Both the position numbers and the translations under genes were made by a program. The notes beneath the pieces are model-generated. The model was not told the DNA's origin and made no database searches. It saw nothing but the letters and a program-made list of their open reading frames with translations. From a virus, in the IMG/VR virus record IMGVR_UViG_3300031227_000301, positions 1 through 28,413 of that record: a stretch of DNA of 28,413 bases. One strand, given 5' to 3'. Shown in pieces: positions 1,365-23,840 of the stretch (position 1 is its first letter; each line of letters starts with the position of its first letter).

Positions 1365-1510
1365 TTGGCCGCCTTCTTTTTCTGCCTGCGTGGCCGGTTC
1401 CAATATGGAGATCGGCATTTCGGACAAGCAAGCACGGTAGACTTGCGGGGGATCCAGACGTGTCCGCATCGCAGGCACGTCAACTTCTGTGGGATTTTTA
1501 CTTTCGTCAT
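1361..1510 (-). CDS. 49-aa zinc-ribbon protein
   Basis: This is a very short gene. The translation begins MTKVKIPQKLTCLRCGHVWI and contains CLRC and CPKC knuckles 17 residues apart, followed by SPYWNRP and a lysine/arginine-rich tail. That is a rubredoxin-like four-cysteine zinc ribbon with a nucleic-acid-binding look. The start at 1510 has GGAGG 7 nt upstream on the minus strand. The TGA stop overlaps the GTG start of the TnpB-like gene by 4 nt. It is the first gene downstream of a clear minus-strand promoter (1529-1556), so it probably leads the operon. Small zinc ribbons of this sequence style are widespread in phages and mobile elements; the specific role is not known. Confidence 0.75.
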   Translation of the reverse strand: MTKVKIPQKLTCLRCGHVWIPRKSTVLACPKCRSPYWNRPRRQKKKAAK

Positions 1511-1528
1511 TTCGTCCTCCACGTCATA

Positions 1529-1556
1529 ACCATAGGGTACGGCGTATCTTTGTCAA
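1529..1556 (-). promoter_or_regulatory. sigma70-like promoter for the minus-strand zinc-ribbon/TnpB-like/SLOG operon
   Basis: On the minus strand, TTGACA (complement of 1551-1556) is followed after 16 nt by TATGGT (complement of 1529-1534). The ribosome binding site and ATG of the zinc-ribbon gene follow directly. The -35 is a perfect consensus and the -10 matches 4 of 6. Confidence 0.6.
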
Positions 1557-1582
1557 GCGGAAAAAGCAAACGGGAAAAAAGA

Positions 1583-1597
1583 TCGACGGGTCGTCGA
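1583..1597. promoter_or_regulatory. Palindromic operator candidate TCGACG-GGT-CGTCGA
   Basis: A perfect 6-bp inverted repeat with a 3-nt spacer lies between two divergent promoters. Its centre (1590) is 14 nt upstream of the plus-strand -35 box (1604). The same CGACG-N3-CGTCG palindrome, at the same 14-nt distance from a TTGAC -35 box, occurs at 5581-5593. Position just upstream of -35 fits an activator or a repressor overlapping polymerase. Confidence 0.5.
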
Positions 1598-1603
1598 ATT
1601 GTC

Positions 1604-1632
1604 TTGACCTGCCCATCTGCCTGCGGCATGCT
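1604..1632 (+). promoter_or_regulatory. sigma70-like promoter for the plus-strand small-gene block
   Basis: TTGACC (1604-1609), a 17-nt spacer and CATGCT (1627-1632) lie about 50 nt upstream of the first plus-strand gene. The -10 is weak (3 of 6), which would suit a promoter needing an activator at the adjacent palindrome. Confidence 0.45.
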
Positions 1633-1679
1633 GACCCCAGGATGAATGACCGCCCCCATGGGCACAACGAGGAGGAACC

Positions 1680-2117
1680 ATGGCAGATAACGAGAACCCA
1701 ACTGTCAACGATCTCTTGGCACTTGCCGAGGATTTCAACGAGATCATCAACGCGGTTGCCGATAAGGGCGGCGACCCGATCGGGTCGTTCTCTGTCTCTC
1801 CCAGCGGGTGGGGACCGGGATCTGTGACATTCGACTCCTGGGGACCTTCCTGGAACGACGACTGCGACGAGCGCGCCCAGGTGGACCCCCAGCGACGAGA
1901 GCGACGATCCCGATCTCGTATCCCTCAGCGTGCACATGATCGGGGAGATGGAGCAGCTCGGGGAAGCGGTTCTGGAGTTCGTGAGGCAGGCGCGTCACCC
2001 CAAACTCGGCGCCTGCGAGACCTGCATGCACTACGTGAGCGGTACCGGCACCTGGGGGCACTGCCCGAAGAAGGACGAGCGCAGACAGGACGGGGACTGG
2101 TGCGAGGACTGGGATGA
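1680..2117 (+). CDS. 5' part of a frameshifted small phage gene, unknown function
   Basis: ATG at 1680 follows a strong GAGGAGG site. The first about 69 codons look genuine (MADNENPTVNDLLALAEDFN, then an acidic and Trp-containing stretch to WNDDCDERAQVDP). After a run of five C (1886-1890) the same frame becomes Arg-rich and low in information (QRRERRSRSRIP onward) up to the stop at 2117, as expected for an out-of-frame GC-rich reading. Shifting +1 at the C run joins VDP directly to SDESDDPDLVSLSVHMIGE, which leads into the next entry. The real product is therefore probably a single protein of about 250 aa spanning 1680-2430. No family recognised. Confidence 0.5.
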   Translation: MADNENPTVNDLLALAEDFNEIINAVADKGGDPIGSFSVSPSGWGPGSVTFDSWGPSWNDDCDERAQVDPQRRERRSRSRIPQRAHDRGDGAARGSGSGVREAGASPQTRRLRDLHALRERYRHLGALPEEGRAQTGRGLVRGLG

Positions 2118-2430
2118 CGGGATCCGAAGCGCCTCAGACGAACAGGGAAAAGAGGAAGCCCCGCATCCACCGTACCCGATCCCTGGGCTACCGCAGTCGA
2201 TGCTCAAGGGCCGTGCCACCGTCGTCGAGGAGATCCTGGCCATCCGCAAGCGCAACACCATCCCGCCGACCGACACCGAGGTCCGGACCATGATGGACCA
2301 CTGCGAGCACGTCGCAGAGGAACGGATGGGCGTCTGTGAACAGGCATGCGCCGAGGATCACATGCGGATCTACCGCGCGCTACAGGAATTGCTGGACCTG
2401 CGCACTCTCAGCCGCGGAGGTGCCCCATGA
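1930..2430 (+). CDS. 3' part of the frameshifted gene: Cys-rich protein, unknown function
   Basis: The open frame from ATG 1930 encodes 166 aa beginning MHMIGEMEQLGEAVLEF. It holds a cysteine cluster (CETCMHY ... GHCPKKDERR ... GDWCEDW), the kind of four-Cys arrangement often seen in small phage zinc- or iron-binding proteins, and a helical C-terminus with further Cys/His (DHCEHVAEERMGVCEQACAE). There is no ribosome binding site at 1930 or at the in-frame GTG at 1924. The frame extends upstream in a sensible acidic sequence to the C run at 1886-1890, so it is more likely the continuation of the 1680 gene than a separate gene. Its stop (TGA at 2428-2430) overlaps the ATG of the next gene. Confidence 0.55.
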   Translation: MHMIGEMEQLGEAVLEFVRQARHPKLGACETCMHYVSGTGTWGHCPKKDERRQDGDWCEDWDDGIRSASDEQGKEEAPHPPYPIPGLPQSMLKGRATVVEEILAIRKRNTIPPTDTEVRTMMDHCEHVAEERMGVCEQACAEDHMRIYRALQELLDLRTLSRGGAP

Positions 2431-2837
2431 ATGAACGCCCTCCCATCGTCAGCATCGGGGCCGGAGACCTCAACAGGGTCCATTGCCAGCGGATCGGACG
2501 CGAAGACTTCATCTTCCGCCGGTACCCAACCCCCGCCGATCTCAAGCGCGCAGAGAACGATAACAAGCTCGTGGTCACGATCGTCGAAGACCGACTCCCC
2601 AGGGTCCGGACCACCGAGGAGACCCGCGCCTTTGTCGATGGCTTCCTTGGTGCCCTTGGCCTTGAGCGATCCGACTACCACGTCCTTGTGTGGGTCCACG
2701 GCATGAGCGAGGAGGAGGGCAGAGAACGCTGGGTTGCGGAGGTCCTTCGGCAGCGGTATATCCCGTTCAGCGTCCAGGCAGGGACCATACCAGGCGCAGG
2801 ACCGATCCCCAACTGTGAGGAGGTGCCCAATGGCTGA
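2427..2837 (+). CDS. Conserved-looking small protein, unknown function (136 aa)
   Basis: The start at 2427 is fixed by an ATGA overlap with the previous stop and by GGAGGTG 5 nt upstream. The product (MNERPPIVSIGAGDLNRVHC...) has a mixed alpha/beta look: short hydrophobic strands (KLVVTIVED, YHVLVWVHGM) alternating with charged helices. No catalytic motif or family is recognised. The tail overlaps the next gene by 8 nt. It belongs to the plus-strand block started by the promoter at 1604. Confidence 0.6.
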   Translation: MNERPPIVSIGAGDLNRVHCQRIGREDFIFRRYPTPADLKRAENDNKLVVTIVEDRLPRVRTTEETRAFVDGFLGALGLERSDYHVLVWVHGMSEEEGRERWVAEVLRQRYIPFSVQAGTIPGAGPIPNCEEVPNG

Positions 2838-3060
2838 GTGGATGATCATCGCTCTCTGGATCTACATGGTCGGGTTCCTCTTGGTTGGGATCGGAGTATC
2901 CGCCAAAGGCCATCGGCATGGCGACGGGGACCACGTTATTATGCTCACTACGCTGGAGGTTGCGGGCCTCTGGCCGCTCCTCATCATCGCTCTGGCGTTG
3001 TACTGGGCCGGGTGGCTGCTGGCCTCGTTCCTCGATCGCCGTGGCACGGGGACCCCATGA
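2830..3060 (+). CDS. Small two-helix membrane protein
   Basis: The product has 76 aa, starting at ATG 2830 after GAGGAGGTG. Two hydrophobic segments are obvious: about residues 4-24 (MIIALWIYMVGFLLVGIGVS) and about 44-66 (LWPLLIIALALYWAGWLLAS). They are separated by a short His/Asp-rich loop (GHRHGDGDH). The C-terminus is charged (FLDRRGTGTP). This is a typical small phage inner-membrane protein; a role in lysis (holin-like) or superinfection exclusion is possible but unsupported by neighbours. It overlaps both flanking genes. Confidence 0.6.
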   Translation: MAEWMIIALWIYMVGFLLVGIGVSAKGHRHGDGDHVIMLTTLEVAGLWPLLIIALALYWAGWLLASFLDRRGTGTP

Positions 3061-3272
3061 AGACCCCTCCCACCATCCGCGAGGCCCAGTGCCCGCGCTG
3101 CAAGCAATGGTCCCCGATCGCCTGGGACGACGCGATCCCCCCAGGCGGCTGGTGGTGGAAGGACTCTGCCGGCTGCCCCGAGTGCGGATACCCTGCCCTG
3201 GTCGAGAGCGAGTGCGAGACGCGGGAGGTCCCGATCCCGTGTCCACACCCGGAGCTGCCGTTCGATTCCTGA
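3057..3272 (+). CDS. 71-aa zinc-ribbon protein
   Basis: ATG 3057 overlaps the upstream TGA (ATGA). The protein (MKTPPTIREAQCPRCKQWSP...) contains CPRC and CPEC pairs about 27 residues apart with a Trp-rich linker (GGWWWKD), a standard four-Cys zinc ribbon. It ends with further Cys residues (SECETREVPIPC). Likely nucleic-acid or protein binding; no specific function can be assigned. Confidence 0.6.
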   Translation: MKTPPTIREAQCPRCKQWSPIAWDDAIPPGGWWWKDSAGCPECGYPALVESECETREVPIPCPHPELPFDS

Positions 3273-3317
3273 CCAGCGCAGCGTGCCCGCTTCCGAGAGG
3301 CAGCGATCCAATTCAAG

Positions 3318-3677
3318 ATGGCTATCGTCGACGACATCGGTCCACCGCCCAGATGGATCGCCGGGTTGTGGGAGAAGTTCTTGCGGCTGTTCAGCCAGAA
3401 GGAAGGCATCGAGGTAAGTTGTGGAGCCGTCACGAGGAGCAGCGGACCTGGGCTCGTGGAATACCTCACTCACGACGGGCCTCTCGACCCGACCCACGTC
3501 GGGATCGACTGGGCAGAGGGCTTCGAGCCCCCCGAGGTCGCCGCGGCCATAGCAGACCCGTCCCTGTTCGTCCTCCCCGGCGAGGACCCGGAGGACTGCC
3601 GCGGCTGCCCCGACGTCGGCTCCTGCGACAATGAGGCTGTCCCCCTGTGCCAGGTCGACGACGAGGAGGATCGATGA
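3318..3677 (+). CDS. Hypothetical Cys-containing protein (119 aa)
   Basis: ATG 3318 lies 45 nt after the previous gene with only a weak upstream purine stretch. The protein begins MAIVDDIGPPPRWIAGLWEK and ends in an acidic Cys cluster (DPEDCRGCPDVGSCDNEAVPLC). The four C-terminal cysteines may bind metal. Its stop overlaps the next ATG by 4 nt, which supports expression as part of the block. No family recognised; the start is less certain than for its neighbours. Confidence 0.5.
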   Translation: MAIVDDIGPPPRWIAGLWEKFLRLFSQKEGIEVSCGAVTRSSGPGLVEYLTHDGPLDPTHVGIDWAEGFEPPEVAAAIADPSLFVLPGEDPEDCRGCPDVGSCDNEAVPLCQVDDEEDR

Positions 3678-13136: not shown

Positions 13137-14698
13137 TGCCACAGCGATCCCCCACCATCCCCGGCCACTTCGAGCCCCTGACCAAGCGACAGAAGCTAGT
13201 CAAGCTGGCGATGCTCCGCTTCCTGGCGCAGCGGGAGTTGTTCCGCCGGCGGCTGCGAACTGACCCCAACGCATTCATCGAGTACGCCTTCGAGACCGAG
13301 AAGGGCGAGCCGATGAAGCAGGCGTGGTTCCACCTGGAGTGGCAGGACCTCCTGACCCACAACGAGGACTGCATAATCATTGGCCCTCGTGGACATGGGA
13401 AAACGAGCCAGATAATTGGACGGATTATCTGGGAGTTGGGGAAGGACCCGAACTTGCGGGTGAAGATCGTCTGCCAGTCGGACAACAAGGCGAAGGAGCG
13501 CCTCGTTGAGATCCAGCAGCACATCGAGGGTAATGTGAGGGTGAAGTTCGTCTTCCCCGGGCTGATGGCTGCGGTGAAGGGGGAGTGGTCGAAGCACAAG
13601 CTCTTCATCCGGCGGACGATCGTCGCTCGAGATGCGTCGGTGCACGCGCTAGGGGTCCTGAGCACCGCGACCGGCGGGCGGTCGGACCTCAACGTCTACG
13701 ACGACGTGGTGGACCGGCGGAACGCGATCCTGCAGCCGAAGCAGCGCGAAAATGTGAAGATGGCCTACAAGGGCGACTTCTCGAACCTCCTGCTCCCTGG
13801 TGGCCGGACCTGGTACATCGCCACGAAGTGGCACAAGGACGACCTGACCCACGAGCTCCTCCGCAACAAGCGCGGGATCTACGCCATCCGGGAGTACGCG
13901 ATCAACGAGGCCCTCGATCCAATCTGGCCCGAGGTCTGGTCGCACCTTGCACTGGTGAGGCAGCGGAAGAAGATCGGGAAGGTGGAGTTCGATCGAGGAT
14001 TCCGGAACATTGCTCTGAGCGGGGACGTGATCGTTATCCAGCCGGAGTGGATCAAGTACCGGCCGTATCGGCACTTCCCCGACGACCTGCACATGATCAC
14101 CGCGTACGATCTGGCCATCGAGGACAAGACGAGGAGCGACTACTTCGCGTGGTGCATCCTGGGGTGGAGCCCGAGCGAGAAGAAGATCTTCGTGGTCGGG
14201 GCTGGGCATGCCAGGCTGACGTTCTACCAGCAGTTCAAACGGGTGATCGGGGACTGGTTGAAGTGGCGGGCCCGGCGGGTGGTCATCGAGACGATCGGGT
14301 ACCAGAAGGCGCTGGCCCAGGAGTTGGAGCGGGTCACGATGATCCCGGTGTTCGGATTCAAGCCGCAGAAGGACAAGGGGACGAGGCTTCTGGAGGTCTC
14401 GCCATACGTCGAGACGGGGAACGTGATCTTCGCCGACCACCTGGACCCGCTGGCGGACAAGGTCACACAGGAGCGCGGAGACCTCGTTTCGGAGCTGACG
14501 GAGTTCCCGCTCTACGTGACCGACGACTGCATGGACGCATTCGTGGAGGGCGCCCTCTGCGTGGTCGGCGTCTACGGGGGATCGATCCTCGAGGACGTGC
14601 TCCGGGAGTACGACGAGGAGGACGACTTCTGGCATGAATGGGACGACGATGATGGCGCCGAGGTGTCGGTGGCCATCGCGGGGGGGGACGACTGGTGA
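13136..14698 (+). CDS. terL: Terminase large subunit
   Basis: The product has 520 aa from ATG 13136 (TGATG overlap with the portal stop; GTG 13133 is an alternative). It is the ATP-driven DNA packaging motor and headful/cos nuclease. The N-terminal ATPase has a Walker A GPRGHGKTS, a Walker B-like LNVYDDVVD, and a coupling-type ATKWHKDD segment. The C-terminal RNase H-like nuclease shows the expected acidic residues: the Asp in MITAYDLAIED, the Glu in RVVIETIGYQKALAQELE and the Asp pair in DDCMDAFVEG. The length is normal. The stop overlaps the next start (GTGA). All key residues look intact, so the protein should be active. Confidence 0.92.
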   Translation: MPQRSPTIPGHFEPLTKRQKLVKLAMLRFLAQRELFRRRLRTDPNAFIEYAFETEKGEPMKQAWFHLEWQDLLTHNEDCIIIGPRGHGKTSQIIGRIIWELGKDPNLRVKIVCQSDNKAKERLVEIQQHIEGNVRVKFVFPGLMAAVKGEWSKHKLFIRRTIVARDASVHALGVLSTATGGRSDLNVYDDVVDRRNAILQPKQRENVKMAYKGDFSNLLLPGGRTWYIATKWHKDDLTHELLRNKRGIYAIREYAINEALDPIWPEVWSHLALVRQRKKIGKVEFDRGFRNIALSGDVIVIQPEWIKYRPYRHFPDDLHMITAYDLAIEDKTRSDYFAWCILGWSPSEKKIFVVGAGHARLTFYQQFKRVIGDWLKWRARRVVIETIGYQKALAQELERVTMIPVFGFKPQKDKGTRLLEVSPYVETGNVIFADHLDPLADKVTQERGDLVSELTEFPLYVTDDCMDAFVEGALCVVGVYGGSILEDVLREYDEEDDFWHEWDDDDGAEVSVAIAGGDDW

Positions 14699-16086
14699 AA
14701 TGCTGTAATGAAACCATCGAGATCCGGCCGAGCGCTCGAGCGGTCCTCGTCGAGAAGGCGGATGGGCACTGGGTGTGGGGACCAGGGGGCGTGCGCAAGG
14801 TCGCTACCGCGGCAGAGGGCATGCTTCTGCTCGGGGGCGAACGTGTCGCTGTCCAGGGAGAGCGCTTCGTCCTCGTCGAGAATACCCTCGATGGGCCGGT
14901 CCTGCACCTTGGCGCGGGGATGCGCAAGGCGGAGCGGATCGTCCGACTCGGATTGAACCCTGTGGACCGAGTCCGTGTCCTTGCCTGCAGCCCGCTGGGG
15001 GGCGTGGGTGTGGTGGCGAGCCGGATGGTGCCATGCACCGAGGCAGACCTCCTCGACGCCGGCATGGCCGCACTCGACGAGGTCCTCGAGGCGTTCGGTG
15101 CCGGGGCCCCAGTGGAGAAGGCCCCGAAGAAGCCGCTGGACCCGAATGACGCGAAGGACTTTGCGCGGATCGTGCGAGAGCTCACCGCTGAGATCAACGA
15201 TCCGCTGGAGCGGGAGGAGCGGGCGGTGATGATCCGCGCGCTGGACGGCATGGCGGAGGTGGATTGGCAGGATCTATCTTCCGATGAGCGGGTGGAGCTG
15301 CTGGGCACGACGGCCGCCGGCGTGGGGGCAGTGGGCGCTACGGCGGTGACGTCCGCGGGGGTGAAGCGCTCGGTGTTCACGACTGGCGAGTCGGTGGTGC
15401 TCGGGACGCGGAAGAGCGTGGGCACGGCACTTGGCATGGATCTGCGGACCTCGATGAATCTGATTGACAGGCGGATCGTGGGGTCGGTCCAGGATCTGGC
15501 GGGGCACTACCTGACCGATCGGAAGAGACAACTGCGGGACCGGATGACCAGGGAGGGGCAGCGTGTTGTGACCGCTGCGCTTGCTGACGGGTTGGGATCG
15601 AAAGAGGTTGCGCGGCGTCTTGAATCGGTTTGGTTGTCGGACAAGACCTTCGGACGTGGACGGGCCTACGCTGAGTTGTGTGCCCAGGCATGGATGCAGG
15701 ACTCGCGGAGCTACGGGCAGATCTCGTCGTACAGCGAGGCGGGGATCCAGCGGTACCAGATCGAGGCGGTGCTCGATGAGCAGACGACTGTCATCTGCCA
15801 GGAGCTGCACGGGAAGGAGTTCGACGTTGGGACGTCAATGCGCCAGTTCGAGGATCGGTCGGGGTGGGACGATCCCCAGGAGATCAAGCGGGCTGCCCCG
15901 TGGGTTCGGCAGAGTGGCGGGGAGATGTTTATCAAGCCACCTGGTGGGGAACGTGTGAGTCTGGGAAGTCGTGGCGAGGATGGAGTCTTCAAGTTTTCGG
16001 TCTCTGATCAGGCCATGCAAAACAGCGGGGTTGGCTACCCACCGTTCCATGGCTACTGCCGCACGACTACCGTCCCGGTGATCTGA
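14695..16086 (+). CDS. Minor head protein with C-terminal MuF-type domain
   Basis: The product has 463 aa from GTG 14695, which overlaps the terminase stop. The C-terminal quarter has the SPP1 gp7/MuF signature: YQIEAVLDEQTTVICQELHG, then after an insertion VGYPPFHGYCRTTTVPVI. These proteins bind the portal on the inside of the head and are ejected with DNA. The first about 130 residues form a separate beta-rich domain (SARAVLVEKADGHWVWGPGG...) not normally part of MuF proteins. The middle (about 150-330) is helical with charged stretches. No toxin domain is recognised, though MuF proteins often carry one. An 82-nt gap with a possible promoter follows. Confidence 0.8.
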   Translation: MKCCNETIEIRPSARAVLVEKADGHWVWGPGGVRKVATAAEGMLLLGGERVAVQGERFVLVENTLDGPVLHLGAGMRKAERIVRLGLNPVDRVRVLACSPLGGVGVVASRMVPCTEADLLDAGMAALDEVLEAFGAGAPVEKAPKKPLDPNDAKDFARIVRELTAEINDPLEREERAVMIRALDGMAEVDWQDLSSDERVELLGTTAAGVGAVGATAVTSAGVKRSVFTTGESVVLGTRKSVGTALGMDLRTSMNLIDRRIVGSVQDLAGHYLTDRKRQLRDRMTREGQRVVTAALADGLGSKEVARRLESVWLSDKTFGRGRAYAELCAQAWMQDSRSYGQISSYSEAGIQRYQIEAVLDEQTTVICQELHGKEFDVGTSMRQFEDRSGWDDPQEIKRAAPWVRQSGGEMFIKPPGGERVSLGSRGEDGVFKFSVSDQAMQNSGVGYPPFHGYCRTTTVPVI

Positions 16087-16168: not shown

Positions 16169-16543
16169 ATGCGGCAAATCGTCCCATCTCTGGTTCGTAT
16201 CGGCAACGATGACGTGGCCGAATCTCCGAAGGCGCAGCGCTATCTCGATCGGTATGTTTCGGAAGCGATCTTGACCAGCTTCAACGAGCGCCCAATGGCC
16301 GGGACGATGACCAGGGCGGAGGTCGTCAGCCGCTTCAATCAGGTCGAAGAGATGGTGAAGATCGCCCGCTTCGACTGCAAGATGAGCCCTTATCGGATTG
16401 CTGACCATCTCCTGCACTGGCTGCTATTGTGGCTGGACGAGAACCCCTGGGAGCCGGATCTGCGCCGGAAGGCGTATGGACCACATGTTTTGAGACCGCG
16501 CCACGACGAGCTTGTCGGGCCGGATGGAAGACCATTGCACTAG
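16169..16543 (+). CDS. Hypothetical protein in the head module (124 aa)
   Basis: ATG 16169 follows GAGGTG with short spacing; the in-frame TTG at 16124 would lie in the promoter. The product (MRQIVPSLVRIGNDDVAESP...) is helical with a Trp/Leu-rich segment (HLLHWLLLWLDENPWEP). No family recognised. The conserved-looking spacing between MuF protein and scaffold-like genes suggests a structural or assembly role, which is inference. Confidence 0.55.
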   Translation: MRQIVPSLVRIGNDDVAESPKAQRYLDRYVSEAILTSFNERPMAGTMTRAEVVSRFNQVEEMVKIARFDCKMSPYRIADHLLHWLLLWLDENPWEPDLRRKAYGPHVLRPRHDELVGPDGRPLH

Positions 16544-16569
16544 GCTTGAAGCCATCACGGGAGGAAGGC

Positions 16570-17286
16570 ATGAGCGACGAACTCAAGAGCAACGCGGATC
16601 TGCTGAAGCGGCTGCTGGCCATGGGCGAGGGCACCCAGACTGGCGACGAGACCAAGATGACCGTCGGCAAGGCCATCGCCGACATCACCGACGCGGTGGC
16701 GAAGACCGGCGGCGACAAGGGCAAGCTCGCCGCGGTAGCCAAGGAGAAGGCCCCGATGATCGAGGCCGTGCTCAAGGCCATCGACGCGGGCAAGGGCACC
16801 GACGAGGAGATTGCCTTCAAGGTGGCCAAGGCCGAGGGCGCCGCCGGCGGGGACGAGAACCTGACCAAGGCAGAGGAAATCCTCAAGGGCCTGCAGGGGA
16901 CGGTCGCCAAGGAGGATGTCGTGTGCCCCAAGTGCAACTGGAAGGGATCCAGCGACGACCTCAAGGACGGCGCCTGCCCCGAGTGCGGCGCGAAGGTCGC
17001 CACCGGCGGTGAGGACGAGGAGAAGAAGAAGGGGTTCGCCAAGGCGAAAACCGACTTCCAGGCCGACCTCGACGTGGCCAAGGCCAAGGCCAAGGAAGAC
17101 CTCTCCGACGACGACAAGAAGAAGCTCAAGGATCGGCTCGCGCAGCTCCGGGGCACCCCCAAGGGCAAGGACGACGACGACCTGAAGAAGGCTGCCGACG
17201 ACCTCGAGGAGATCTCGAAGGGCTTCGGCGGCGAGTCCGACGGAGGCTGGGGCTACGACCTGAACGACGATGGCAGCGACAAGTAG
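16570..17286 (+). CDS. Lys/Asp-rich helical protein with central zinc ribbon, possible scaffold or internal head protein
   Basis: The product is 238 aa from ATG 16570 with GGGAGGAAGG upstream. Residues 1-110 are helical and Lys/Ala-rich. A zinc ribbon follows (VVCPKCNWKGSSDDLKDGAC, PECGAKV), then a highly charged coiled-coil half (AKAKAKEDLSDDDKKKLKDR, DDDDLKKAADDLEEISKG). The extreme C-terminus, GGWGYDLNDDGSDK, resembles the DWGLDLADE end of the scaffold-like protein at 19522. Codon use is very regular (AAG, GAC, GCC). The charge pattern and location before the protease fit an internal or scaffolding role, but no family match can be claimed. Confidence 0.6.
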   Translation: MSDELKSNADLLKRLLAMGEGTQTGDETKMTVGKAIADITDAVAKTGGDKGKLAAVAKEKAPMIEAVLKAIDAGKGTDEEIAFKVAKAEGAAGGDENLTKAEEILKGLQGTVAKEDVVCPKCNWKGSSDDLKDGACPECGAKVATGGEDEEKKKGFAKAKTDFQADLDVAKAKAKEDLSDDDKKKLKDRLAQLRGTPKGKDDDDLKKAADDLEEISKGFGGESDGGWGYDLNDDGSDK

Positions 17287-17345: not shown

Positions 17346-19517
17346 ATGGACCCCCAGCACGACTACACCGGCAGCGGCGGCCTCGTCGAATTCCTGCTCA
17401 AGGATCTCATCGAGGACGAGCGAGAGTTGGTCCGCATGTTCGGACCCGACCACGTCCGGAAGATGGCTGTGCTGTGGAGGTCCCTTGTGGGCAAGAGCGC
17501 GATCGCCAAGCCGCTCCTGAAGATGTTCCCGGAGCACAAGGTCTACGTCGAGCCGTTCGCAGGTTCCGGGGCGATGTTCTTCAACAAGGAGCCCGTGGAG
17601 AAAGAGGTCCTGAACGACCTGGATCCGGAGATCGCCTTCGGGTTCCGGTTCGTCCAGGGGGTGACCAGCGCGCAGTTGAAGAAACTTGAGGGCATGAAGT
17701 GGTGGATCGCTGACTCAAAGCCTGCATTCGATGCTCTCCGCAACGGCAAGCCGACAGGGGACGTGGAGCGGTTCCATAAATTCTTGCTGCTGAAACTGGT
17801 CTCATTTTTCGGTAAAGGCAATGAGAGTTCACGCACGTCCAATCGCGTTGGCACTCCGACGAAACGTCCACCGTTGGCTATCGGCAGAATGAAAGAGGCG
17901 AAGGAGCGCCTGGCTGGTGTGGTGATCCGGTGCGAGGACTACCAGAAGGTCTGCAAGGAATTCGACGGTCCCGACACCTTCCAGTTCCACGATCCTCCCT
18001 ACCATGGATTTGGGCAGAACGTCGGCGAGAAGGAGTGGGACGAGAAGCCCTACGCAGAGTTCATAAAGACGCTCAAGTCCAAGTTCCTGATCACTTACGG
18101 CGACAAGGGGGACATGGGGATCTGGAAGGGTTTGAATGTCAAGAAGCATACGGTGTCGAAGCCGCTCCCGATGGGTGTTGGAGCAAGCACCGGCGTGATG
18201 TTCACCATCACCAACTTCGACGTGAAGACCGTCTCCATGATGCGCAAGGACCAGCGGGTGGAGATCACCGCCGCGCAGGCCGCGGTGCTGGCCTCCGGTG
18301 TCCCGATGCTGACGGACGTGCTCCCTGTGCTCAAGGATCTTGCTACCGGGCTTGGCCGCCTGGTGCCGAGTGAGATCACGGACGACGCGGTGTCCCTCGA
18401 ACGCATCCTCCAGGCATCGATCGCCGGTCACCAGGTGCTGAAGGGCAATGTCCCGGACGAGGACCTGGTGCGACTCAAGAACGGCATCCGTGGCCTGGCC
18501 GAGATGGTCGGGTTCGACGCACCGATGTTGAATGGTCTCGCCGAGAGCATCGGGAAGGCTGTGGACCTGGTCCCTGCCCCGTCGATGACCCCCGACGAGA
18601 AGCGGGAGTCCCAGGCGCTTCGTTCGAAGAAGTGGGGGATCTCCGCACTCGACGGGCATGGGGAGCGGCTGACGTTCCCCGCCGGCTGGTCGAAGGACCT
18701 TGAGGACTACGGGGATCCCTGCAATCTCATGTATCCCTGCGACACCGTCGAGCGGGCTCGGAATGCCCGGATCAGGTTCAAGCAGTTCGCAGCGGGATAC
18801 CCGCAGGATGCGGATCGGAAGATTGTCCACGGTCGCATCGTGGAGCGCGAGTTGAAGCTCGGGATCAAGCCGCGCTTCGACGAGAAGGACGCGCTGGACA
18901 TGCTGCTCCCGGAGAACCTCCGGACGCAGATGGAGAAGGCGCTGGGGCAGGGCGGGGGGCCAGAGGGAGATGGTGGTGCAGAGCAGTGCGTGTGTCCCGC
19001 CTGCGGAAAACAGGTGGCCCACGATCGCAGTACGCCATGCAACGAGATGAAGTGCCCCGAGTGCGGTGCGGCAATGACCGGGCAGGGGGCCCCTGGGGAC
19101 GCGACCCAGAAGCAGCACCACTGCACCCTCCTGAAGAAGGCAGACCCCGCCAAAGAGGAGCGGTACGTCCTGGGCTTCGTCTTGCGGGCGAACATCGAGG
19201 ACAAGCAGGGCGACATTTACGACGAAGCCGCGGTCCGCGAGGCGATGTTCTCCTGGATGGAGAAGGGCCACAAGGAGGGCTTCCTCCACCGCGAGGCAGC
19301 GGGAAACCGCGTGGTCCTGGTCGAGAACTTCCAGGCCCTGGCCGACTTCGAGATCCCGGGGCCCGAGGCAGCGGACGGGAAGGCTGTGAAGATCAAGAAG
19401 GGCGACTGGCTGCAGGGCTGGAAGATCCTCGACGACAAGATGTGGGCAGACGTGAAGGCCGGGAAGCTGACGGGGTTCTCGATCGGTGGTCGCGCGAAGC
19501 GGACGCCGGAGGAGTAG
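17346..19517 (+). CDS. Fusion of D12-class adenine DNA methyltransferase with XkdF-type prohead protease
   Basis: The product has 723 aa. Residues about 45-295 are a Dam/D12-type N6-adenine methyltransferase: VLWRSLVGKSAIAKPLLKMF, the AdoMet loop YVEPFAGSGAMFF (67-79), NDLDPEIAF, and catalytic DPPY (216-219). Residues 300-410 are helical. Residues about 425-530 (RSKKWGISALDG, YGDPCNLMYPCDT) resemble DUF6582, often found in head modules. A zinc ribbon follows (CPAC 550-553, CPEC 570-573). Residues about 605-715 match the XkdF/peptidase S78_2 prohead protease: YVLGFVLRANIEDKQGDIYD, HKEGFLHRE (His 648), GDWLQGWKILDD and LTGFSIGGRA (Ser 712), the probable catalytic His and Ser. ATG 17346 has GGAGG about 8 nt upstream. 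The reading frame is unbroken and motifs on both ends look intact. The protease may release the methyltransferase in the procapsid (inference). Confidence 0.85.
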   Translation: MDPQHDYTGSGGLVEFLLKDLIEDERELVRMFGPDHVRKMAVLWRSLVGKSAIAKPLLKMFPEHKVYVEPFAGSGAMFFNKEPVEKEVLNDLDPEIAFGFRFVQGVTSAQLKKLEGMKWWIADSKPAFDALRNGKPTGDVERFHKFLLLKLVSFFGKGNESSRTSNRVGTPTKRPPLAIGRMKEAKERLAGVVIRCEDYQKVCKEFDGPDTFQFHDPPYHGFGQNVGEKEWDEKPYAEFIKTLKSKFLITYGDKGDMGIWKGLNVKKHTVSKPLPMGVGASTGVMFTITNFDVKTVSMMRKDQRVEITAAQAAVLASGVPMLTDVLPVLKDLATGLGRLVPSEITDDAVSLERILQASIAGHQVLKGNVPDEDLVRLKNGIRGLAEMVGFDAPMLNGLAESIGKAVDLVPAPSMTPDEKRESQALRSKKWGISALDGHGERLTFPAGWSKDLEDYGDPCNLMYPCDTVERARNARIRFKQFAAGYPQDADRKIVHGRIVERELKLGIKPRFDEKDALDMLLPENLRTQMEKALGQGGGPEGDGGAEQCVCPACGKQVAHDRSTPCNEMKCPECGAAMTGQGAPGDATQKQHHCTLLKKADPAKEERYVLGFVLRANIEDKQGDIYDEAAVREAMFSWMEKGHKEGFLHREAAGNRVVLVENFQALADFEIPGPEAADGKAVKIKKGDWLQGWKILDDKMWADVKAGKLTGFSIGGRAKRTPEE

Positions 19518-19521
19518 AGAT

Positions 19522-20412
19522 ATGCTGCGACAAGTGATGAAGCGGACCCGGCTTTCGGACATGGACATCGAAGAGGTCTCCATCGTCGGGCGCGCCGCGA
19601 ACGGCGAGAAGTTCGTGGTGATCAAGGCCGATCTCCCTGGCGAGGGCGAGGAGGACCAACTCAAGAAGAGCGGGATCTACTCGAACGCCGTGGCCAAGGA
19701 CGACAAGACTCTCAAGAGCGCGTGGGAGGCCCTGCCGCTCATGCCGCTCTGGGAACTGTCGGATCTGGTGGTGCCGGATCTCTCGACGATGAAGAGCCAC
19801 CCTGTCGTGGTCGAGAACCTCCAGATGATGCTGAAGCACATCGGGGAGTTTTTCGTGAAGCTCGACGACGCGTTGGGCAAGGTCCAGAAGGACCGCAACA
19901 TGTTCCCGGACGACGTGGTCTTCCCCGCTGATCTGGCGGAGTCCATCGCCACCATCGGGAAGGCGTTCGGTCTGGTCCTGGACATCCACAAGGGGGATCA
20001 CCCCGGCCTGGTGCACGGCAAGGCGGCCACGACCCCAGCCGATGACCAGAAGAAGGAAACGAGTGAACTCCGTGCGCTCCTGCAGGGCCTTCTTGGCAAG
20101 GCTGCTGTGGGCGGCGCCGATCACCGCGAAAACCTCGAGAAGGCCAAGGGCCTGATCGCAGGTTATCAGGATGTCTGCAAGGCGCTGGAGGGGCGCAACG
20201 GTCGACTGGCGGACCAGATCGCAGACTCAAATCGCCAGGTGCGCGCGCTGAAGGCTCGGACCTTCAGCAGAGGGGCCCTGGACCCCGATGAAGAATTCTC
20301 CAGGGATGGCGTTCGGAAGAACGCTGGCGGTGGTGGCGGCGACGAGGACAACACGGATTGGGGTCTCGATCTGGCTGACGAGGTGGCCGAGGATATGGCT
20401 GCCGGAACCTAG
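19522..20412 (+). CDS. Scaffold-like protein with protease-associated N-terminus
   Basis: The product is 296 aa from ATG 19522 with GGAGGAG 7-9 nt upstream, 4 nt after the fusion gene. The N-terminus (RLSDMDIEEVSIVGRAANGE, KFVVIKAD) matches the EVSLVDrPAN segment common in XkdF-type protease regions. The remainder is helical with coiled-coil potential (ENLQMMLKHIGEFFVKLDDA, LEGRNGRLADQIADSNRQVR). It ends in a Gly-rich linker and DNTDWGLDLADEV. Its place between protease and major capsid gene is where scaffolding proteins lie. The protease may process it; no cleavage site can be defined from sequence alone. An 83-nt gap follows. Confidence 0.65.
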   Translation: MLRQVMKRTRLSDMDIEEVSIVGRAANGEKFVVIKADLPGEGEEDQLKKSGIYSNAVAKDDKTLKSAWEALPLMPLWELSDLVVPDLSTMKSHPVVVENLQMMLKHIGEFFVKLDDALGKVQKDRNMFPDDVVFPADLAESIATIGKAFGLVLDIHKGDHPGLVHGKAATTPADDQKKETSELRALLQGLLGKAAVGGADHRENLEKAKGLIAGYQDVCKALEGRNGRLADQIADSNRQVRALKARTFSRGALDPDEEFSRDGVRKNAGGGGGDEDNTDWGLDLADEVAEDMAAGT

Positions 20413-20495
20413 ACGTAGACTCCGGTGTGACGGGCTGAGTAGTAGGGGGATCTTCGGAGCGCGAGAATGAAAACCGAACCCACGAGGAGTTGAAA

Positions 20496-21434
20496 ATGGA
20501 TGACGCGCGCACCTGGATCCAGAAGGCAGACATGGCCCTTGGGGACCTCACCACGGACGGTGGTGTTTTGGTTCCCGAGCAGGCCAAGTTATTTCTCAAA
20601 AAGCTGATCGCCAGCTCCACCATCCTCCCGAAGTCCCGGGTCCTCACAATGAAGAACCCGGAGCGCCGGGTCGAGAAGGTAGGATTCACCTCCGCCCGAG
20701 TGCTGGCTGCGGGCACCTCCGGCTCCGCCGTTGGATCGGGCAGCCGGGTGGCTCCGGACCTGAGCCGCGATACCCTGACCTCGAAGCTCCTCAAGGGCGA
20801 GTGCGACATCCCGAAGGAGGTGTTCGAGGACAACATCGAGGGCAAGAAGTTCCTGAGCACCGTGACCTCCCTCATGGTCGAGCGGGCTGGCCTGGACCTT
20901 GACGAGTTGTTCCTCAACGGATACATCTCCGGTGGGGATCCCTTCCTCGGGATCCTGGACGGCTGGATCACGAAGGCGACCTCCAACGTCTACGCCGCAG
21001 GCGGGGACCTGGTGAGCAAGGACGTCTTCAAGGCGATGTGGGCAACCGTGCCCAAGGCCCACCGGAAGAACAAGAAGCAGATGGTCAACTACGTCGGCTC
21101 CGACGCGGAGTCCGAGTACGCGGACCAGATCGGCGAGCGCGGAACCCCCGCGGGCGATCGTGCTGCCATCGAGGGCATGGCCCCGAAGTGGCAGGGGATG
21201 CCGATCGTGGGCGTGCCCGTGATGCCCGAGGACGGTGGAAGCGGGCACGACGAGACCACCGCGCTCATGGGGAACCCCAAGAACTTCATCGTCGGCTTCC
21301 AGCGGAAGGTCGAGGTGGAGCACGAGGTCAGCAAGCGGGACGGGGTGGTCTACATCCTGATCTCGGTGCGGACCGACTGCACCTTCGGTGAGGAAGAGGG
21401 CATCACCAAGGGAACCGGGATCACCTACGCGTAG
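20496..21434 (+). CDS. Major capsid protein (HK97 fold)
   Basis: The product is 312 aa from ATG 20496 with GAGGAG upstream (TTG 20490 also possible). HK97-like features: an N-arm (TTDGGVLVPEQAKLFLKKLI), the E-loop/P-domain region (SRVLTMKNPERRVEKVGFTS), a spine-helix DIPKEVFEDNIEGKKFLSTV, LDELFLNGYISGGDPFLGIL with DGW, and the A-domain (GMPIVGVPVMPEDGGS, NPKNFIVGFQRKVEVEHEVS). The length is normal for a capsid protein processed or not by a prohead protease. Position after protease and scaffold-like gene is as expected. Confidence 0.88.
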   Translation: MDDARTWIQKADMALGDLTTDGGVLVPEQAKLFLKKLIASSTILPKSRVLTMKNPERRVEKVGFTSARVLAAGTSGSAVGSGSRVAPDLSRDTLTSKLLKGECDIPKEVFEDNIEGKKFLSTVTSLMVERAGLDLDELFLNGYISGGDPFLGILDGWITKATSNVYAAGGDLVSKDVFKAMWATVPKAHRKNKKQMVNYVGSDAESEYADQIGERGTPAGDRAAIEGMAPKWQGMPIVGVPVMPEDGGSGHDETTALMGNPKNFIVGFQRKVEVEHEVSKRDGVVYILISVRTDCTFGEEEGITKGTGITYA

Positions 21435-21479: not shown

Positions 21480-23840
21480 ATGGCTGATCTGAATAACCTT
21501 CCCGAGCGAGGCGTCCCCGGTACTCACCTGTCGGTGCGACATTCGCCCGACGCGGTGGCTGCCCTGCGCGCGTCCATCGCCCGGCAGAATCTCACCATCG
21601 ACGTCGATGCGACGACCGGCGACGTCGTCCTGTACCTCAGCGCGGCGAAGACCACCTACATCACCTTCTCGGCAGCGACCGGCGCGACGAAGCTGGTGGT
21701 GGCGGGTGTGGACCGCGGGTCCATCGAGTCGGGGCTGATGGGCGACAAGGACCCCCAGGAGTCCGTCCTGTCTCGGTACGATCCCACCCCGAATCTGCCG
21801 GTGACCCCCACCGAAGGGGATCGGTACCTGGCCACCGCGACCGCGAACACCTGGACCAAGGACTACATCTACACCCTGAACGGCGCGAGCGCCTGGGACG
21901 AGTACGTTCCTGACGAGGGAGCGCTTGTCGAGGTCGAGGATGAGAACGTCTGGTACACCTTCACCGGTGCCGCGTGGATCCGCTTCGAGGAGCAGATTGC
22001 CCACGCGCTCCTGGCGGGTCTCCAGGGCGGGACCACGAGTGAGTACTTCCACCTGACCGAGGCGCAGCACGCGGCGTTCTACCTGGGGCAGACCGGGGTC
22101 CTGGGTCGCTTCGATCCGACCGCCGCGCTCCCCGTTGCTCCGTCGGACTGGGATGCGTATCTGGCGACTGCCACAGCGAACGGCTGGACCGATGGGAACT
22201 GTTACGTCTGGAACGGCGCTGCCTGGATTGTGGTCGTCGTGGCTGAGGGTCAGAAGCTGTGGGTAGCGGACGAGGACTTGATCTACGCCTACGACGGCGC
22301 GACCTGGGGGATCCTCCAGGCGAAGGACGCCGGGGGGCATGACCACGGTGCCGCTACGGGTGCTGGTGCCACGCACACCCACGCGATCACCGACCCCAAC
22401 CATGACCACGGTGCGGCGACGGCTGCTGGTGCCACGCACACCCACGCGATCACCGACCCCAACCATGACCACGGTGCCGCTACGGGTGCTGGTGCCACGC
22501 ACACCCACGCGATCACCGACCCCAACCATGACCACGGAGCGGCCACGGCTGCCGGTGCCACGCACACCCACGCGATCACCGACCCCAACCATGACCACGG
22601 TGCCGCTACGGGTGCTGGTGCCACGCACACCCACGCGATCACCGACCCCAACCATGACCACGGTGCGGCGACGGCTGCCGGTGCCACGCACACCCACGCG
22701 ATCACCGATCCCAACCATGACCACGGAGCGGCCACGGGCAGCGACGGAGCGGCCACGATTCCCATGTCTCTCCGTGGGAGTATGCCTACGCCGTCTCAAC
22801 CGTTCATAGGCGGTCCCTTTGCTGTGATACCTTCGACCCCGAATCCCGGTGGAGCCGCCTGGATGGAGTACAACACCGCTATCGAGCCGGACTTGGCGAT
22901 CAACTGGACGGAATCCAACAATGGCGTGAACGGAGTCCTGACGTTGGACGGTGCCGGCCCGAATATCATACTCACCGATGCCATGTGGGGTGGGTTCACT
23001 GCCGCGATGGTCGGCAAGTACGTCTACATCCAGAACGATGCTACTGTTCCTGGCAACAACGGGCTTTACGGGAGGATCGCTTCATACACGAGTCCCACTG
23101 CCGTGGTCCTGGACGTGGGCACTGGGTCGTTTGGTGCCCTGGCCGTGAGCGCTGGGACAGTGGACTTCCTGGTGTACGAGTTCAAGTGTGGTGACTGTAC
23201 CATCAGCTACCGCAACCTCAACACGTTGCTTGGTAACGATGAGACCAGGGTGATCACGCAGGAGGAGATCGAGGATGCCTGTGTCGCAGACGAAATAGCG
23301 GAAGGCTGGATGTCTCCGAACATGCCGAAGTGTGCTATTCCCATCGAGCGGGCTGTCGTGTACGTCGCCGAGATAACGTTCGAGTTCGTGGCGACTGCCG
23401 ACGCGGAGGTCTTCGATCTATACACGGGGGCAGACAGCGGGTTCGCCATGATCCACGGCTGTGCATTCGTGCATCAGTTCATTGATTTAGCGGGAGGCCA
23501 GAATGTGATTTTAGGAACAACCACTATCTACGCTGTGGAGGGGTTGGTCCGTCCGTCTGCTCCTGTGGGTGTTGCTGGCGATATTCAGGCGACCTGCTTC
23601 CTGCCGCTGCCCGATCACACCCACGCGATCGCCGCTGATGCGACGGGAGTGACTGCGGATGCCGAGGCCACGCACACCCACGCGATCGCCGCTGATGCGA
23701 CGGGAGTGACTGCGGATGCCGAGGCCACGCACACCCACGCGATCGCCGCTGATGCGACGGGAGTGACTGCGGATGCCGAGGCCACGCACACCCATTCCAT
23801 CACCGCAGCGGGTGACCACGCGCATGACGTGGGCGTCTAG
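21480..23840 (+). CDS. Fibre-like virion protein with duplicated domain and His-rich HxH repeats
   Basis: The product is 786 aa from ATG 21480 with GGGAGGAG. Residues about 96-169 and 206-279 are two copies of one DUF2793-like domain (both contain YLATATAN and end G-A-x-W). Between them EQIAHALLAGLQGGTTSEYF-HLTEAQ is a motif common in phage tail fibres. Residues about 286-420 are six 21-aa repeats (DPNHDHGAAT, AGATHTHAIT), giving a row of HDH and HTH pairs. A globular region (about 425-705) follows, then three 19-aa repeats with HTHAIAADATG and a His-containing end. HxH pairs coordinate iron in T4-type fibre needles, so a metal-binding trimeric fibre is likely. It directly follows the capsid gene, suggesting a head-attached fibre rather than a tail one (inference). 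Confidence 0.7.
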   Translation: MADLNNLPERGVPGTHLSVRHSPDAVAALRASIARQNLTIDVDATTGDVVLYLSAAKTTYITFSAATGATKLVVAGVDRGSIESGLMGDKDPQESVLSRYDPTPNLPVTPTEGDRYLATATANTWTKDYIYTLNGASAWDEYVPDEGALVEVEDENVWYTFTGAAWIRFEEQIAHALLAGLQGGTTSEYFHLTEAQHAAFYLGQTGVLGRFDPTAALPVAPSDWDAYLATATANGWTDGNCYVWNGAAWIVVVVAEGQKLWVADEDLIYAYDGATWGILQAKDAGGHDHGAATGAGATHTHAITDPNHDHGAATAAGATHTHAITDPNHDHGAATGAGATHTHAITDPNHDHGAATAAGATHTHAITDPNHDHGAATGAGATHTHAITDPNHDHGAATAAGATHTHAITDPNHDHGAATGSDGAATIPMSLRGSMPTPSQPFIGGPFAVIPSTPNPGGAAWMEYNTAIEPDLAINWTESNNGVNGVLTLDGAGPNIILTDAMWGGFTAAMVGKYVYIQNDATVPGNNGLYGRIASYTSPTAVVLDVGTGSFGALAVSAGTVDFLVYEFKCGDCTISYRNLNTLLGNDETRVITQEEIEDACVADEIAEGWMSPNMPKCAIPIERAVVYVAEITFEFVATADAEVFDLYTGADSGFAMIHGCAFVHQFIDLAGGQNVILGTTTIYAVEGLVRPSAPVGVAGDIQATCFLPLPDHTHAIAADATGVTADAEATHTHAIAADATGVTADAEATHTHAIAADATGVTADAEATHTHSITAAGDHAHDVGV
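22341..22718 (+). repeat. Six 63-bp coding tandem repeats (HDH...HTH units)
   Basis: Six units of exactly 63 bp begin at 22341 (GACCACGG...), with a partial seventh at 22719. Units 1, 3 and 5 carry GCTACGGGTGC and encode ATGAG; units 2, 4 and 6 encode ATAAG. The array therefore has a 126-bp higher-order period and arose by duplicating a pair. They encode 21-aa fibre repeats. Confidence 0.9.
23616..23786 (+). repeat. Three 57-bp coding tandem repeats near the fibre C-terminus
   Basis: Units start at 23616, 23673 and 23730 (CACACCCACGCGATCGCC...), nearly identical, with a diverged fourth start at 23787. Each encodes 19 aa with one HTH pair. Near-identity suggests a recent expansion. Confidence 0.88.

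Follow-up and report, generated by a model that had tools for sequence, protein, structure and literature searches.

A Dam-type adenine methyltransferase joined to an XkdF head maturation protease: a candidate virion-loaded payload in phages

Prohead proteases enter the procapsid together with the scaffold and cut head proteins as well as themselves; the small fragments leave. In a 28,413-nucleotide stretch of viral DNA (hereafter the window), the gene in the place of such a protease also encodes a DNA adenine methyltransferase, which raises the question of what a DNA-modifying enzyme is doing on a head maturation protease. An earlier note on this DNA had suggested that the methyltransferase is carried into the procapsid and freed there by self-cleavage.

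Results

A single open reading frame encodes a predicted methyltransferase and a predicted head protease

The earlier note had described one unbroken frame holding an intact D12-type methyltransferase, a DUF6582-like segment, a zinc ribbon and an XkdF/S78_2 protease, and each of these elements was recovered. All 723 codons are open, with no internal stop, and a GGAGG-like site precedes the ATG (Table 1). From N- to C-terminus, the protein consists of a Dam-type D12 adenine methyltransferase, a helical linker, the DUF6582-like segment, the zinc ribbon and XkdF (S78_2). Pfam MethyltransfD12 matched residues 49-221 (E=5e-16, 59.6 bits against a cut-off of 22), and a PDB profile search aligned the whole adenine methyltransferase 7m6b to residues 44-293 (E=8e-9), which indicates that the domain is complete. 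The profile match, motif I together with DPPY, and the Dam fold described below place the domain among the D12/Dam-type adenine methyltransferases, with methylation itself being predicted. The Dam subfamily model TIGR00571 scored 56.4 bits, under its 114.85-bit threshold; we thus call the domain Dam-like, do not file it as Dam, and do not assume GATC specificity. GATC was not depleted, and no avoidance was seen.

At the other end of the protein, Pfam Peptidase_S78_2/XkdF matched residues 597-719 (E=1.7e-18, 67.3 bits against a cut-off of 24). This profile, the candidate catalytic His and Ser at the residues that the earlier note had named, and the position before scaffold and capsid genes assign the domain to XkdF/Peptidase_S78_2, with proteolysis predicted. 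The DUF6582-like segment was not called by Pfam in the fusion protein and was recognized by phmmer (residues 416-540, 1e-34) through a protein, L298, that itself has a Pfam DUF6582 match (2.3e-6). The zinc ribbon, for which Pfam gave weak matches only, has CPxCG pairs at 550-554 and 570-574 whose cysteines are invariant in three relatives. No helicase domain was detected by Pfam anywhere in the protein, so the pairing of a methylase with a SWI2/SNF2-type helicase that marks DarB-like proteins is absent. The dN/dS values (0.21-0.37 for the methyltransferase and ~0.06 for XkdF) indicate that both domains are under purifying selection.

Structure prediction of the full protein, which the earlier note had proposed as a check, recovered both folds, so neither is lacking. 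With a 53-row alignment (an earlier 11-row alignment gave a poor pLDDT of 52.8), AlphaFold2 returned block means mostly of 86-98 for methyltransferase residues 51-120 and 181-270, 84-89 for the zinc ribbon and mostly high confidence for XkdF, with a poorly defined linker at about 300-470. Among PDB structures Foldseek matched E. coli Dam, T4 Dam, DpnM and Mcbe1 (lowest E 2e-12), and in BFVD it matched XkdF proteins. Beside the latter were two viral proteins annotated as Zeta toxin (A0A6J5PIT0 and A0A6J5KKZ6), which suggests that Zeta toxin is another cargo type of XkdF.

Table 1. Features of the fusion gene and its neighbours, in window coordinates
Feature	Position	Strand	Remarks
MuF-like minor head protein	14695..16086	+	phrog_13868, Phage_Mu_F; same family upstream of fusion in L163
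Methyltransferase-XkdF fusion ORF	17346..19517	+	723 aa, ATG start, no internal stop; same fusion in L002, L003, L004
Block of divergence from L003	17432..18189	+	residues 29-281, confined to methyltransferase domain
D12/Dam-type adenine methyltransferase domain	17478..18218	+	residues ~45-291; Pfam, PDB profile match, Foldseek to Dam
Motif I VEPFAGSG (SAM binding)	17547..17570	+	residues 68-75
Motif IV DPPY (catalytic)	17991..18002	+	residues 216-219
Predicted helical linker	18219..18590	+	residues 292-415, low confidence
DUF6582-like segment	18591..18953	+	residues 416-536; phmmer 1e-34 to L298
Zinc ribbon (CPxCG...CPxCG)	18987..19067	+	residues 548-574; pLDDT 84-89; Pfam matches weak only
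XkdF/Peptidase_S78_2 head maturation protease domain	19134..19502	+	residues 597-719
Candidate catalytic His648	19287..19289	+	kept in XkdF rows of alignments A4/A6
Candidate catalytic Ser712 in GFSIGG	19479..19481	+	kept in XkdF rows of alignments A4/A6
Scaffold-like gene directly downstream of fusion	19522..20412	+	probable start; phrog_13975 and phrog_3017 N-terminal matches
Major capsid protein	20490..21434	+	phrog_1623, E=5e-73

The fusion recurs in independent genomes

Three further IMG/VR contigs, assembled from different metagenomes, hold the same unbroken fusion with identities of 100, 91 and 74% (L002, L003 and L004), and two of these three relatives are complete genomes of ~87 kb. 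Contig G001 (86.9 kb) represents the window's own phage (99.97%), and its genome is closed because the window bridges both of its ends with a 137-base overlap; G003, an 86.6-kb contig, has a terminal repeat of 114 bases. More distantly, relatives with ~42% identity in both domains, in one frame, occur in at least 25 of the 195 Myxococcota genomes searched, some of them on chromosome-sized contigs as prophages of isolate genomes. The domain order that the earlier note had proposed to look for in other phages is thus found both in IMG/VR contigs and in Myxococcota. That the fusion is an assembly error or a chance read-through of two genes, the doubt raised in that note, is extremely improbable given independent contigs, two complete genomes, isolate prophages and a domain order that persists at ~42% identity; an assembly error is excluded, since separately assembled contigs and isolate-genome prophages share the architecture. 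DPPY and the protease His and Ser are kept in the relatives. Motif I is mostly VEPFAGSAA in the distant ones, and within the window's lineage the methyltransferase motifs are all canonical and invariant.

Other searches were less productive. The FHDPPYHG pattern retrieved only the three relatives already known, the P0001 patterns had no match in the genome scan (alignment of distant fusions then gave matches), and the plasmid search returned, among the records listed, only stand-alone Dam-like matches. Matches in Meiothermus and Thermus phages were rejected as fusions, as they are free-standing methyltransferases with a 'serine protease-like' ORF on the opposite strand.

The fusion occupies the head protease slot and is the sole S78-type protease found

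The genes start in the order portal (11157), TerL (13133), MuF-like (14695), fusion (17346), scaffold-like (19522) and capsid (20490), which bears out the earlier note's placing of the fusion in the protease slot before scaffold and capsid. The start listed for the scaffold-like ORF, 19486, is probably wrong, with the ATG at 19522 behind GGAGGAG being the likely one, in which case this ORF and the fusion do not overlap. The scaffold-like gene also comes next after the fusion in L163, L158 and L038. In each of the complete genomes G001 and G003 the single XkdF match is the fusion, and among recognizable types we found neither a second XkdF nor an S78 match there. The XkdF part of the fusion has no nearby start codon with a strong ribosome-binding site. 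With the fusion as the only recognizable protease and no strong internal ribosome-binding site, every copy of the methyltransferase would, judging from the sequence, be translated as part of the head protease polypeptide. The complete genomes also encode free-standing PF01555 methyltransferases. A lone XkdF protein (~200-214 aa) occupies the same slot as the fusion, but without cargo, ahead of related capsid genes in DLP_5, V-YDF132, RHph_Y1_11, JP1 and RcZahn; cargo is therefore optional for head building.

Several other features of these genomes were recorded. Just upstream of the fusion, the gene at 16429-17286 (likely start near 16570, conserved in L004) encodes a zinc ribbon (CPKCNWKG...CPECG). 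The TerL of L004, the 74% relative (1396-3363), carries an intein-like insert in its Walker A region (GHGK/CMVAGTPVQ...VTHN/TTIL, slashes marking the insert ends) that is absent from the window TerL. Tandem repeats in the window at 22338-22737 (63-bp, 6.3 copies) and 23616-23794 (57-bp, 3.1 copies) code for HDHGAAT.../HTHAI... units, and by BLAST coordinates the window exceeds the G001 assembly by about four copies of the 63-bp unit and one of the 57-bp unit.

The methyltransferase domain alone differs between two near-identical phages

Outside the methyltransferase domain, the window and L003 are nearly identical (~99%) over 11 kb. The METHYLTRANSFERASE domain is the part exchanged between them: 178 of the 242 differing columns fall within 17346-18221 (876 bases, residues 1-292), compared with 64 differences in 10,094 columns elsewhere, and more than 300 bases downstream of 18189 show no difference at all. 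Synonymous divergence (pS) is 0.49 in the methyltransferase domain, falls to about 0.01 in the linker and is 0 in XkdF. As judged from this alignment, a divergent allele, itself under purifying selection, has taken the place of the methyltransferase domain alone. Such a swap is consistent with an altered DNA target under restriction pressure, as would be expected of a swappable specificity module, and would fit a structural role poorly. It is one case in one metagenomic contig pair, for which chimeric assembly is unlikely; a domain swap was looked for among L157, L158 and L162 and none was seen. The L003 phage (G002, L028) also encodes an MT-A70 and a free D12 methyltransferase, at 17691-18170 and 19042-19530, in a stretch without alignment to the window.

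XkdF terminates a wider set of multi-enzyme proteins

Searching IMG/VR for XkdF motifs, and searching for the distant fusions, uncovered a range of N-terminal partners of XkdF: methyltransferases, DNA ligase, nucleotidyltransferase (NTase), 2H phosphoesterase, UDG and Tad3-like domains, where Tad3, 2H and other cargo labels are profile matches and 'NTase-like' is a reading of the sequence. Among the matches listed, 53 of 70 non-redundant complete XkdF ORFs begin with 100 aa or more of additional sequence, which in 17 holds a D12 domain. In the XkdF type prevailing in the first scan, the ORF opens with the protease and continues into a long C-terminal part, so N-terminal cargo is limited to part of the XkdF family.

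Two methyltransferases precede XkdF in L157, L158 and L162, and three in L184; further double fusions are L187-L192, L195, L197, L199-L201 and L221-L225. In the aligned double fusions the second methyltransferase domain has GGS for GGK with DPPY kept, and this second copy may be inactive or re-purposed. L226 (1162-5628, 1488 aa) strings four D12 methyltransferase stretches and a Tad3-family domain ahead of a terminal XkdF. Tad3, a Type I Thoeris inhibitor, gave Pfam matches of 1.8e-8 in L226 and 8e-8 in L318 (3-725, a partial ORF), both XkdF-terminated. ATP-dependent DNA ligase lies ahead of XkdF in L038 (7556-10891), L069 (1-2547), L220 (2142-7826) and L233 (4206-8795), together with a methyltransferase in L220 and L233 and with both an NTase-like part and a methyltransferase in L038. 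Some ligase fusions hold LigD-like and NTase-like parts, and where checked they stand in the slot before scaffold and a phrog_1623 capsid; in L038, L163 and L158 the same scaffold-like family and the phrog_1623 capsid adjoin the fusion. A 2H phosphoesterase precedes XkdF in L164 and in gp18 of the isolated Arthrobacter phage Salgado, and UDG does so in L344 (3985-5541; PF03167, 5.9e-19) and, weakly, in L079 (3-1292).

The PAK_P3-type 'DNA methyltransferase' (138 aa) was rejected as a further fusion, as it holds XkdF only. Proteins of 138-212 aa bearing that name include L005 2919-3335 (PAK_P3 gene 3), many Nankokuvirus records and RHph_Y1_11 EVC30_149. On lone XkdF proteases the name looks like a propagated misannotation, whose source may be a methyltransferase-XkdF fusion or the phrog_1530 label.

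Discussion

By its predicted content, the fusion is a polyvalent protein in that it joins unrelated functional domains in one protein among packaging and head genes. We propose that it works as one, with the methyltransferase carried into the procapsid, released, delivered and shielding phage DNA from restriction, a reading that we hold to be evenly poised between right and wrong. The gene would encode a precursor with the Dam-type methyltransferase as N-terminal cargo and the head maturation protease at its C-terminal end. XkdF would bring this precursor into the procapsid and cut the linker during head maturation, leaving a folded methyltransferase of ~30 kDa trapped in the head, to be ejected with the DNA into the next cell, where adenine methylation would protect phage DNA against restriction. 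This assumes that the cargo survives the protease, though prohead proteases usually degrade themselves and the scaffold. Procapsid carriage and release by self-cleavage, as the earlier note suggested, are now better supported, because no other S78-type protease was found in two complete genomes, because other enzymes expected to act early occupy the slot in related phages and because the methyltransferase domain is swapped as a unit.

The main rival, which we consider rather unlikely, holds that the methyltransferase acts in the producing cell, where it is made late together with the head genes and methylates progeny DNA around packaging so as to protect it in advance, and that fusion only couples its expression or locates it to procapsids, with no need for ejection. 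Modification before packaging is the classical phage route around restriction, the fusion lies among structural genes in every relative with context examined, and the allele swap fits this account equally well. For such a role, however, a separate late gene would be enough, and the same genomes already encode free methyltransferases, while the recurrence of DNA ligase, 2H, UDG and Tad3-like domains in the same position is left unexplained. The free-standing PF01555 enzymes mean that methylation need not depend on a packaged one; together with the non-methylase cargo in sister phages, they tilt the balance to delivery over methylation in the producing cell, without settling it.

The D12 domain could instead be retained as a structural part of the precursor, there to bind DNA or scaffold, and methylation would then not matter. 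The GGS of second methyltransferase domains, by which some copies may be inactive, and the FAGSAA form of motif I in most distant relatives point this way, but the motifs of the window's lineage are all canonical and invariant, a domain-only swap to a divergent allele and rapid evolution would be odd for such a part, and a lone XkdF works in close capsid relatives; we find this improbable. Less probable still is a mere economy of two genes, in which self-cleavage frees the enzyme in the producer cytoplasm with neither a virion role nor a need for the procapsid. A self-cleaving protease fusion could indeed free its enzyme anywhere, but here XkdF occupies the head slot, no other S78-type head protease was found, and proteases of this kind are expected to act inside procapsids.

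Extending the delivery reading, we suggest tentatively, with slightly less than an even chance of being right, that phages use XkdF head proteases generally to load and release enzymes of DNA repair and anti-defence, which are interchangeable at the protease N-terminus and make up a swappable counter-defence payload borne by the virion, with the methyltransferase as a specificity cassette. If so, any N-terminal domain on XkdF becomes a candidate virion-delivered effector, and the fusion partners of head proteases would be a simple place to look for anti-restriction or anti-signalling proteins. It would also be a natural cargo-loading mechanism, with culturable Myxococcus prophages (M. xanthus AM003, L173/L174, carries the phrog_13242 fusion) and isolated Arthrobacter phages (for the 2H form) as test systems.

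The earlier note knew of no described system of this kind, which was too strong. The window protein matched phrog_13242 at 3e-73, a PHROGs v4 family (450 aa, labelled 'unknown function') with the same order of D12 methyltransferase (24-247) and XkdF (about 309-430). That this family has the methyltransferase-XkdF architecture follows from L163, which matches it end to end, and from lone XkdF proteins, which match its C-terminal part. The window protein has about 270 extra residues between the domains (helical linker, DUF6582-like segment and zinc ribbon). In Arthrobacter Laroyevirus gp18, named 'RNA ligase', an N-terminal 2H phosphoesterase and a C-terminal XkdF in the head gene cluster resemble the fusion, with a cargo that acts on RNA or nucleotides whereas that of the window is of the DNA methylation type.

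The general idea of multi-domain virion proteins that end in a head protease is already published. Assemblin-like (head-maturation) peptidases were reported to be always C-terminal in phage polyvalent proteins, and processing in virion assembly has been proposed (Iyer et al. 2017, PMC5512222). The window protein resembles that group in being multi-domain, in its head-gene context, in its C-terminal head-type peptidase and in a cargo thought to be early-acting; the methylase theme there is a SWI2/SNF2-adenine methylase module, unlike the solo Dam-type D12 domain here, and neither XkdF nor DNA ligase is named in the text of that paper. In the literature searched we found no description of a methyltransferase-XkdF fusion; figures or supplements may hold examples. 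The Dar proteins of P1 are packaged, co-ejected and protect DNA against type I restriction, and DarA is trimmed by the P1 prohead protease (PMC9024508, PMC12810830). DarB is an anti-restriction protein that, as with the window protein, has a methylase domain, and is a precedent whose virion location is proven, that of the window protein being predicted; DarB differs in having a helicase, an N-terminal targeting signal and no fusion to a protease (PMC9024508, PMC12810830). Beside these systems, what is apparently undescribed is the XkdF-terminated set with its D12 methyltransferases, ligases and anti-defence-like domains, which is common in myxobacterial prophages.
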